From assembly GCA_017510785.1 (NCBI GenBank), contig JAFWMH010000061.1, positions 1 to 64,000 of the forward strand: DNA of 64,000 nucleotides, read 5' to 3'. Every line of letters begins with the position of its first letter. Position 1 is the stretch's first letter. The position numbers were made by a program, and so were the translations under genes. Below are positions 11,277-63,567 of this stretch, one piece after another. The notes under the pieces are model-generated. The model was not told the origin of the DNA, made no database searches, and saw only the letters and a list, made by a program, of their open reading frames with translations. This stretch comes from Atopobiaceae bacterium. Its GTDB lineage: Bacteria > Actinomycetota > Coriobacteriia > Coriobacteriales > Atopobiaceae.

Positions 11277-11288
11277 CGTGAAACGGCC

Positions 11289-11822
11289 GTTGGGTGCCAA
11301 AGGGGCACAGATAGATACGCTGGGCAAGCTATTAGGGTGCTTGTGGCACCCATCCCGACGTTGGGTGCCGAAGGGTGCCGGATAGATTTGTCATGCTTAC
11401 TATTTGGGTGCCAATGACACCCATTGTTGCGTTGGGTGCCGATGGGGTACAGATAAAAGCGCCGGGCGGGCTATTCGGGTCCGTTTGGCACCCGTTGCGA
11501 CATTAGGTGCTAAAGGGTGCCAGATAGCTCGGGTTCGTCGGCTATTCGGGTCCCGTTGGCACCCGTTTCTGACGTTGGGTGCCGGAGGGGTTCAAATAGA
11601 AGCGTCGGGCCAGCTATTCGGGTGCCAATGGCACCCATTGTTGCGTTGGGTGCCAAAGGGTGCCGGATAGCTCGGGTTCGGCGGCTATTCGGGTCCCTTT
11701 GGCACCCGTTTCTGGCGTTGGGTGCCGATGGGGTACGGATAGAGGCGCCGGGGGTGCTATTCGGACCCCTTTGGCACCCATTTTCCGTTGGGTGCCAAAG
11801 GGTGCCGGATAGGGCGGGCGGC
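11289..11822. repeat. R1 array: seven and a half tandem 71-nt hairpin units
   Basis: Unit starts (GTTGGGTGCC or a variant) are at 11289, 11360, 11431, 11502, 11574, 11645, 11717 and 11787, a period of 70-72 bp. Each unit pairs GGGTGCCAAAGGG...GATAG with CTATTCGGG...CCCTTTGGCACCC, a stem of about 20 bp with a 13-15-base variable loop. Where the left arm changes, the right arm often changes to match. The array lies between the Rpn gene and the 3' end of the giant surface gene. A single relative lies at 55915-55995. Confidence 0.95.
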
Positions 11823-17251: not shown

Positions 17252-17455
17252 GTCGGACGAAATATCGACTTGTGCAACTGAAAGGTTTGCACAGATCGAT
17301 ATTCCGTCAGATTCCGCCCCCACGATTTGCACAGGTCGATATTCCGTCCGATTTCACCTCGAACGGTACACCGCGAAGACCATCGGGAGGAGAATCCTGT
17401 CAAAAGTGCGACCTGTGCAAATGCCCGATTTGCACAGGTCGATATTCTGTCAGGA
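17252..17455. repeat. R4 cluster: five copies of a 26-nt motif in mixed orientation
   Basis: The motif TTTGCACAGGTCGATATTCC plus GTC occurs forward at about 17286, 17327 and 17429, and inverted at about 17252 and 17397 (more diverged). Two more copies lie upstream of uvrB. Spacing varies from under 10 to about 45 bp. Confidence 0.85.
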
Positions 17456-17513
17456 TTTTCCCTTGGGACGGCCACGACGGTGACCCACCCGAAGCGTAAA
17501 GCATTGGCGTGCC

Positions 17514-17847
17514 GTTAGCGGACAAAAAACAGGCTAAGTGGCACCTCTGGTACACGTCATGGGTTGTGTACCGAGGGGACCGTTTAGCGGACGAAACCGG
17601 TGCTAAGTGGCGCCCCTGATACACGTTATGCATCTTGTGTGCCAGCGGTGCCGTTTAGCCCGCAAAAGCCCGCCTAAGCGGCACCTGTGGTACACGCTAC
17701 GCAGGCTGTGTGCTGGCAGCGACGTTTAGCGGGCGAAACCGGTGCTAAGTGGGTCCGGGAGCACACGGGATGAAGCTGTGTGCCGGGGGGAACGTTTAGC
17801 GGACAAAACCCGGGCTAAGTGGGTCTCCCAGCACACAGGATGAGACA
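17514..17847. repeat. R2 array: five tandem 68-71-nt structured units
   Basis: GTTTAGCGG-like starts lie at 17514, 17582, 17653, 17724 and 17794. Each unit has TTTAGC...GCTAAG as one short stem, then a second inverted pair such as GCACAC...GTGTGC or GGTACAC...GTGTACC whose two arms vary together between units. Two further units lie at 38841-39015. Confidence 0.92.
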
Positions 17848-17848
17848 C

Positions 17849-17977
17849 GCCCCCAAAGGATGGCTGAATCGAAAAGTGGCCCGGAGGAGCAGCCGTGCGC
17901 AGTCCCGCAGAAACGAGGACTGTTCGAGCACGGCTCCCTCCGGGCCACGGAAGAGGCAGTTGACAATTCTTTAGGAG
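17849..17977 (-). repeat. R3 palindromic element, copy 1 (inverted)
   Basis: This is a diverged copy of the 130-bp R3 element. GTGGCCCGGAGGAGCAGCCG and, 45 bp on, CTCCCTCCGGGCCAC form the inner arms. TTCTTTAGGAG and GCCCCCAAAG are the degenerate ends. It lies between the R2 array and the 3' end of the second giant gene. Confidence 0.85.
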
Positions 17978-18079
17978 AAGGCGACGCAGCCGGGCGACAC
18001 GGGCCTCGTCACCCACGACGCCACCGGGCTCGCACCGGCGACGCGGCCGACAGCGCGGGCCCGCGGCGCCAGCGCCCTC

Positions 18080-27665: not shown

Positions 27666-27708
27666 TGGGGTGCGTGCTCGGTGTCGATGCTCGGCTCCGG
27701 GGCAAAAG

Positions 27709-27773
27709 TCTGTCGGAATATCGACCTGTGCAACTCTCCGCGCCGGAATCTGTCGAAAAATCGACCTGTGCAA
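27709..27773. repeat. two R4 motif copies upstream of uvrB
   Basis: TGTCGGAATATCGACCTGTG plus CAA (about 27711) and TGTCGAAAAATCGACCTGTG plus CAAA (about 27751) are direct copies 40 bp apart, of the same family as 17252-17455. Confidence 0.85.
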
Positions 27774-27796
27774 AACTTTCAGTTGCTTTTACACAG

Positions 27797-40812: not shown

Positions 40813-41104
40813 GCTCTTTCAACCTCCTTCTTTCCGCGTGAAGTGCGGAATTTGGTTCCTATTATTCTTGTTTGCGTTGGAAAAAGTCGCAATACTCGTG
40901 CGCGCGTCTCAACACGAACGACAGAAAGCATCAAGTCAAACTTAAAGGTTTGCATATGTCGTAAAGCAACATACATTCTCCGCAATTTCGTGAATGACTA
41001 CCGACCGCTCGCAACGACTTCGTACAAACTGGACGCCCGCCAAAACCCACGGGATGGTCGATTCCACTAGGTCCAAGACGAGCCGCCCGACCCCGGTGAA
41101 CCTG

Positions 41105-41231
41105 CACCTAAAGATTAGTGAAATGTCCCGCAAGCGACCCGGAGGGCGGCGACTCTTGCAGCCCTCGTTCCCACGGAACTGCGCGCAGCTGGTCCTCCGG
41201 TCCACTTTCCGATTTGATACTTCTTTAGGGA
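41105..41231 (+). repeat. R3 palindromic element, copy 2
   Basis: Ends read ACCTAAAGATTAGTGAAATG and (right) GATTTGATACTTCTTTAGGG; the inner part has GACCCGGAGG, GGAACTGCGCGCAGCTGG and TCCTCCGGTCC. The element is flanked by a 12-bp direct repeat GGTGAACCTGCA (41095-41106 and 41235-41246). It lies in the 869-bp gap between the NlpC/P60 and surface-protease genes. Confidence 0.85.
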
Positions 41232-41513
41232 CAGGGTGAACCTGCATCTGGGCCCGGAGCCCTCGCAGCTGCCTGCGCCGATGGAGGAATGCCCACCATT
41301 ACATCCATCCCATAAGGGTTCGAGTTGTGACGCAGCGAACAAATACTTGCTCTTCTTTTATCAGTTGACAAGTCGTAAGTCTACCCGCGCTCGTCGCCGA
41401 ATATACCTCGGCAGGAAAAAACGTTCATCCATCTTTGGCCAACAAACCCAAAGCCCGCCCGCGCTCGTCACCACCACACCTCGGCAAACGTCATTTCCAT
41501 TTTCGCGCATAAC

Positions 41514-45260: not shown

Positions 45261-45384
45261 GGTTGCCACAATGCGGACGGGCGTCCGCGATTGAATAACG
45301 TGCGCGAAGGCCGGCATCGAGGACACTCGGGTCGGCCTTCGCGCGTGCCGTTCCTCCCAAAAGTCGGCCTTCGCGGGTGCCCCC

Positions 45385-45514
45385 GCCCCTAAAGAATAGT
45401 CAAATGTCCCGTCCGTGGCCCGGAGGGCGCCGTGCTCGAACAGTCCTCGTTCCTGCGGAACTGCGCGCGGCTGCTCCTCCGGGCCACTTCGCGATTTGAC
45501 GCTTCTTTAGGGGC
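45385..45514. repeat. R3 palindromic element, copy 3 (best preserved)
   Basis: The 130-bp element has perfect 12-bp ends, GCCCCTAAAGAA and TTCTTTAGGGGC. Inside lie GTCAAATG/GATTTGAC arms, then GTGGCCCGGAGG/CCTCCGGGCCAC, then a central GTTCCTGCGGAAC palindrome. It lies 125 bp after the surface-protease gene. Confidence 0.92.
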
Positions 45515-45702
45515 AGGCGCGTGCCGGCCCCCAGGCTTTCACCAGCGGATTGGCGACTTATGCCGCAATTTCGACTTTTTTCGACCGATTGCCGAGTGTG
45601 GAGCGCTGTTTCCGCAGGTAAATGGCGCCGATACTTCACTCTGGGCCGATTTTAGTCGAAATTTCGGCATAACTAACCACACGGAGACGCGAAGGCCCCC
45701 AT

Positions 45703-51048: not shown

Positions 51049-51185
51049 CCCTCTCCTTTCGCGCGGCTTTTTCTTTCCTCCAGAATAACCCTTTTGTGGG
51101 ACACAAATCGAGATAAGATTCACGCCGAGGTGGTTTGCGTTACGCCGAGACTCCTCGACCGCAGTCGCGAAGCCGAATCCCGCCA

Positions 51186-51300
51186 AAAAAGCAAATGCTC
51201 ATCCGTGACCAGTGGCCCGGATGACGCCGTGCCCGAACGATTCTCGTTCCTGCGGAACTGTGCGCGGCTGCTCCTTCAGGCCACTTCCCGTCCCTGATTT
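51186..51300 (+). repeat. R3 palindromic element, copy 4
   Basis: The inner part is well kept (AGTGGCCCGGATGACGCCGT, TCGTTCCTGCGGAACTG, CTTCAGGCCACTT) but the TAAAGAA ends are degraded. It lies in the 373-bp gap between the divergent ABC and lipoprotein genes. Confidence 0.8.
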
Positions 51301-51366
51301 CGTCCCGATTTGGCAAGGCATTTTTGACAAGGGCGTGAATAACTCGCGCCAGGCGCCGCACAACGG

Positions 51367-63385: not shown

Positions 63386-63387
63386 GA

Positions 63388-63567
63388 CGCCCCTGAAGAA
63401 TAGCCTATAGCGCCAGGCGAGATGCCTGCCAAGAATAACCAAGTGGCCCGTCCGTGGCCCGAAGACGGCGAATCCTGCGGTTCTTGTTTTGCGGAACTGC
63501 GCGCAGCCGGAACCGCGCGGTTGCTCCTCCGGACCACTCCCCGATTTGATCATACTTTAAGGGCGGG
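63388..63567 (+). repeat. R3 palindromic element, copy 5, with an insertion
   Basis: Left end CGCCCCTGAAGAATAGCC (63388), inner GTGGCCCGTCCGTGGCCCGA, TTGTTTTGCGGAACTGCGCG and CTCCTCCGGACCACTC, right end GATTTGATCATACTTTAAGG. It is about 50 bp longer than copy 3, with an approximately 40-bp insertion near the left end. It lies in the 290-bp gap before the GH2 gene. Confidence 0.85.

Follow-up and report, generated by a model that had tools for sequence, protein, structure and literature searches.

An intergenic palindrome of an Atopobiaceae genome is very probably an IS1595-family miniature element with a host 3'-end hairpin at its centre

A nested palindrome that recurs in a window of 64 kb (the whole stretch of Atopobiaceae DNA analysed here, 64,000 nucleotides) is very probably a miniature transposable element (MITE) of the IS1595 family, built around a hairpin that the host carries at the 3' ends of its own genes. 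With less assurance, we consider it probable that the hairpin belongs to a previously undescribed RNA element found after stop codons throughout the order, in which a long stem, quick to change in sequence yet always paired, bears a conserved internal-loop tip that is likely read by a dedicated factor for mRNA 3' ends or stability, and that an IS1595 MITE took up this element and spread it through the genome.

The original prediction placed the repeat at five positions in the window, and all five were confirmed (Table 1). The two well-preserved copies, at 17849 and 45385, are 86% alike and lie in opposite orientation; the copy at 41105 is diverged, and those at 51186 and 63388 are decayed or carry extra sequence. 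The genome from which the window comes (G000) is a MAG of 3.56 Mb in 81 contigs, 96.4% complete, and at least 40 copies were detected in it by BLAST, 40 of 122 candidates having been scored. The pattern of the inverted ends occurs there 87 times at up to 3 mismatches, compared to a single occurrence of a reversed control. The element has no transposase gene inside its 136 bp, and the copy at 45382-45517 folds with -82 and -90 kcal/mol on the two strands (z = -8.4 on the plus strand and -10.3 on the minus strand, relative to shuffles).

Table 1. Positions of the miniature element, its parts and the transposase-bearing elements with the same ends. Rows without a genome label refer to the window.
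Feature	Position	Strand	Length	Remarks
Best-preserved MITE copy	45382..45517	+	136 bp	alignment of 43 copies; strong fold
Left terminal inverted repeat CCCGCCCCTAAAGAATAGTCAAAT	45382..45405	+		in G012 and G013, an IS1595 transposase gene has the same ends on either side
Right terminal inverted repeat CCTGCCCCTAAAGAAGCGTCAAAT	45494..45517	-		end-pattern searches
Left target duplication CGGGTGCC	45374..45381	+		7/8 identity to right duplication
Right target duplication CGCGTGCC	45518..45525	+		pairs with CGGGTGCC
Tip motif at palindrome centre, common to host 3'-end hairpins	45429..45471	+		covariance model R1, 68 bits, E 1.1e-17 (window)
MITE copy 1	17846..17981	-		86% identity to 45388-45514; tip 59.9 bits
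MITE copy 2, diverged tip	41101..41235	+		GGTGAACC at flanks; tip 23.8 bits
MITE copy 4, decayed, most of ends gone	51183..51318	+		tip 36.1 bits
MITE copy 5, decayed, extra internal sequence	63386..63567	+		end matches at 63389 and 63564
G012 transposase-bearing element	G012:C11:130574-131874		1301 bp	GCCGTGAC both sides; inverted end CCTGCCCCTAAAGAAGCGTCAAAT
G013 transposase-bearing element	G013:C194:74753-76078		1326 bp	GAAGAGGTA both sides; ends similar to CCTGCCCCTAAAGAAGCGTCAAAT

The boundaries of the element were derived from an alignment of 43 copies with their flanks. Direct repeats in the flanks begin 3 bp beyond the ends noted earlier; the mean flank identity at this true offset is 0.54-0.55, and none of 200 shuffles exceeded 0.39 at any offset. 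Furthermore, a target duplication with at least 7 of 8 positions identical is present in 18 of the 43 copies, whereas 1000 shuffles averaged 0.66 such copies and reached 5 at most. This gives the element a length of about 136 bp, the termini CCTGCCCCTAAAGAA...TTCTTTAGGGGCAGG and 8-bp target duplications, and while the palindrome of the original prediction stands, its 130-bp extent does not, each true end lying 3 bp further out. The 12-bp direct repeat reported around copy 2 proved to be part target duplication (GGTGAACC) and part bases shared with the end of the element itself.

The same ends were found around a transposase gene in two sister species. A search of the 16 genus genomes with the end pattern yielded two complete transposase-bearing elements, in G012 and G013, whose proteins score above the cut-off for Pfam DDE_Tnp_IS1595 and for the NCBIfam IS1595 transposase model; the G013 protein additionally has a zinc ribbon. 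IS1595-family insertion sequences are related to the eukaryotic Merlin elements, and 8-bp duplications are usual for them (PMC8101967). A transposase with matching ends, which had been proposed as something to look for, is thus present within the genus. The MITE shares nothing with the two autonomous elements beyond the ends of about 25 bp, which rejects a simple internal deletion of either of them as its source. Searches of the window's genome with the transposase protein and with NF033547 gave no IS1595 transposase, and a collapsed transposase copy could be missing from this 81-contig MAG. The unpaired ends fetched from that genome did not lead to a full transposase-bearing partner either, those that were read being decayed or truncated MITEs. 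Other centres between the same IS1595-type ends were also seen in short palindromic elements (L082, L083, L084, L085 and L091; L082, L084 and L091 are in sister species), several of them with 8-bp duplications.

An empty site in a relative had also been suggested as a sign of mobility, and one was found: both flanks of the copy at G000:C51:4518 match one orthologous place in G010 (L153) from which the element is missing, with a junction too diverged to be read to the base. A further MITE is common to the close pair G001 and G002, with TTACGTTT on both sides in G002; its flanks, examined for an empty site, are not syntenic in other genomes. The matching ends, the duplications, the sister-species transposase and the G010 empty site together identify the repeat as an IS1595-family MITE, and the earlier suggestion of a miniature transposable element is further upheld by the copy number and the lack of an Rfam match. 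An IS1595-type transposase acting in trans would recognise the inverted ends of about 25 bp and insert the MITE with an 8-bp target duplication; the lineage of the window may have lost that transposase, or the assembly may miss it. As a separate observation, one locus of the window's genome (L023, G000:C19:2360-3084) and one of another species of the genus (L145, G014:C35:100-746) are 99.7% identical over 647 bp with the MITE included, as a result of either recent transfer or mistaken binning.

The centre of the palindrome has a history of its own. The GTTCCTGCGGAAC centre is a separate and much older hairpin common to the order, a fact that is invisible from the window alone. Its 43-nt tip, GUGCUCRRACAG-(variable stem)-AACUGCGC, occurs outside MITEs too: in relatives, only element positions 43-91 find matches at many places, and these places are hairpins in which the same tip sits on other arms, the tip and the adjoining base pairs being what they share with the MITE. 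Run within the order, the covariance model R1 of the tip has matches in all 16 genus genomes (up to 105 in one genome), in 75 of 140 genomes and 15 of 35 genera of the family, and in 144 of 299 sampled genomes and 34 of 107 genera of the order, distributed over at least five families. Twenty regions of two other families display the same architecture as the genus hairpins.

The original prediction held that a match in Rfam would remove the novelty of the repeat; the window and 13 loci of three families gave none at gathering score. The matches that appear at a low threshold are eukaryotic microRNA hairpins and were taken as an effect of the long stems. Two tip patterns had zero matches in viral contigs, and an exact 20-mer in a Pyrinomonadaceae contig is without hairpin arms and was taken as chance. 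No description of the motif was found in the literature covered, which excluded supplementary tables and subscription papers. Two arrangements of the tip hairpins were noted in passing. At L122 (G012:C2:222621-223265) they are nested, one full hairpin lying within the tip of another, and in family f10 (L312-L316, L319) they often come as two hairpins that face each other from opposite strands at a distance of 100-400 bp, as expected if two convergent genes each had their own hairpin.

Outside the MITE, the tip caps long hairpins behind ordinary genes (median stem 26 bp, n=83). The clearest series lies at the 3' end of groEL, where the tip on its long stem starts 37-46 nt past the stop codon in 12 of the 12 genus genomes from which the place was recovered, the window's own species being among those with the hairpin. 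The 5' arms of these hairpins have a mean identity of 59%, and when arms are combined by the same offset search, 93% of the first 22 positions pair within a species as against 69% between species; thus each arm follows the changes of the other while the tip stays fixed. Behind htpG, the tip is present in G003 and G006 (the G003 contig ends inside the hairpin), a MITE lies about 76 nt past the stop in the window's genome, and G007 is without a hairpin. Upstream genes confirmed by Pfam include those for anaerobic ribonucleotide reductase, glycyl-tRNA synthetase beta, phosphoglycerate kinase, GAPDH, IF-2, TypA/BipA, dUTPase, SRP54, Hsp90 and formate-THF ligase. Some groEL loci have further features: second half-hairpins repeat the tip and the 3' arm with a differing 5' arm (L246, L245, L250), as if tandem duplications had been broken at the tip, and in another family (L257, G033) groEL is followed by a long paired hairpin with the tip GCTCGAAC...ACTGC, which may be a distant variant.

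Codon-trained gene calls are unreliable for orientation (antisense shadow frames), and gene ends were instead assigned by a rule that treats both strands alike, namely 100 or more codons without a stop, ending 15-120 nt away. By this simple rule, and in a set where related copies are not independent and many genomes are MAGs, 63 of 90 non-MITE tips have an upstream sense gene end and 33 of 90 an antisense one, as compared to 22% of random positions. The cases with a gene end on one side only divide into 41 sense and 11 antisense (p = 4e-5), and many of the sense stop-to-tip distances fall at 39-48 nt. The sense bias, the proximity to stop codons and the conservation of the tip, while the stem only needs pairing, argue that the host hairpin works in RNA; it would most likely act in 3'-end formation or mRNA stability, by way of a factor that reads the tip.

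It is possible, if doubtful, that the host hairpins are instead plain transcription terminators in which the tip is simply a stable loop. They do lie directly after the stops of housekeeping genes, and in actinobacteria there are proposals of hairpin terminators that lack a U-tract. However, a U-tract follows the stem in 0 of 83 host hairpins, which led us to reject classical terminators, and a distinct classical terminator lies within 160 nt downstream of 7 of the 83, against 0.5% of random positions. The tip is also conserved across families while the arms change, which is more than a loop needs.

The direction of borrowing must be considered as well, since the tip and its adjoining base pairs are common to both kinds of hairpin and G000 and G007 have many MITEs with the tip: the MITE might have come first, every tip-bearing host hairpin being a decayed or domesticated insertion. 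We find this improbable, because tip hairpins occur in families and genera that have no sign of the ends, because the position of the groEL hairpin is shared by 12 of 12 species, and because the host hairpins are sense-biased. In families f2 and f10, a loose end-like match accompanies 3 of the 32 hairpins read, all three in f2, and these may be chance. In the preferred reading, the MITE would most likely have originated when a host hairpin became bordered by IS1595 ends. Immobile REP-like host hairpins, spread by duplication and kept for function, would fit the occurrence of the central motif behind genes across the order and the conserved long stems, but they are a very improbable explanation of repeats that have fixed ends identical to those of IS1595 elements, 8-bp duplications far above chance, an empty site in G010 and, unlike the host hairpins, no orientation preference towards gene ends (25 vs 26 of 43 copies in the window's genome).

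Each part of this structure resembles a known system and departs from it. The IS1595 family provides the transposase domain, the zinc ribbon in one partner and the 8-bp target duplication, whereas the MITE is without a gene and has only its ends in common with the transposase-bearing elements. Like other bacterial MITEs it is short, non-coding and present in many intergenic copies with inverted ends and target duplications, but at its centre lies a hairpin motif of host 3' ends, which also occurs outside the element across the order. REP and BIME sequences, too, are many-copy palindromes between genes and frequently lie close to 3' ends; in the present repeats, by contrast, it is the tip that is conserved, with arms free to vary, and mobile copies have IS1595 ends and target duplications. 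Intrinsic terminators are also hairpins behind stop codons, and differ from the present ones in the U-tract, the stems of about 26 bp, the conserved tip and the separate terminator that follows some of them. The Collinsella-1 RNA motif (RF01700) is listed from Actinobacteria and the human gut (PMC2864571), but the host hairpins match neither it nor any other Rfam family at gathering score.

Taken alone, the MITE adds a new family to a kind already known. The hairpin tip offers a concrete, searchable handle on the marking of gene 3' ends in an order that includes gut bacteria, and a mobile element with a host 3'-end structure at its core could have insertions near gene ends tolerated or could alter the transcripts there. 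The window also holds two repeats of other kinds: a 71-72-bp unit with TTGGGTGCC and CTATT in seven tandem copies (11282-11782), and, at two places (17274-17462 and 27701-27786), a separate family of inverted repeats around ATTTGCACAGGTCGATATT.
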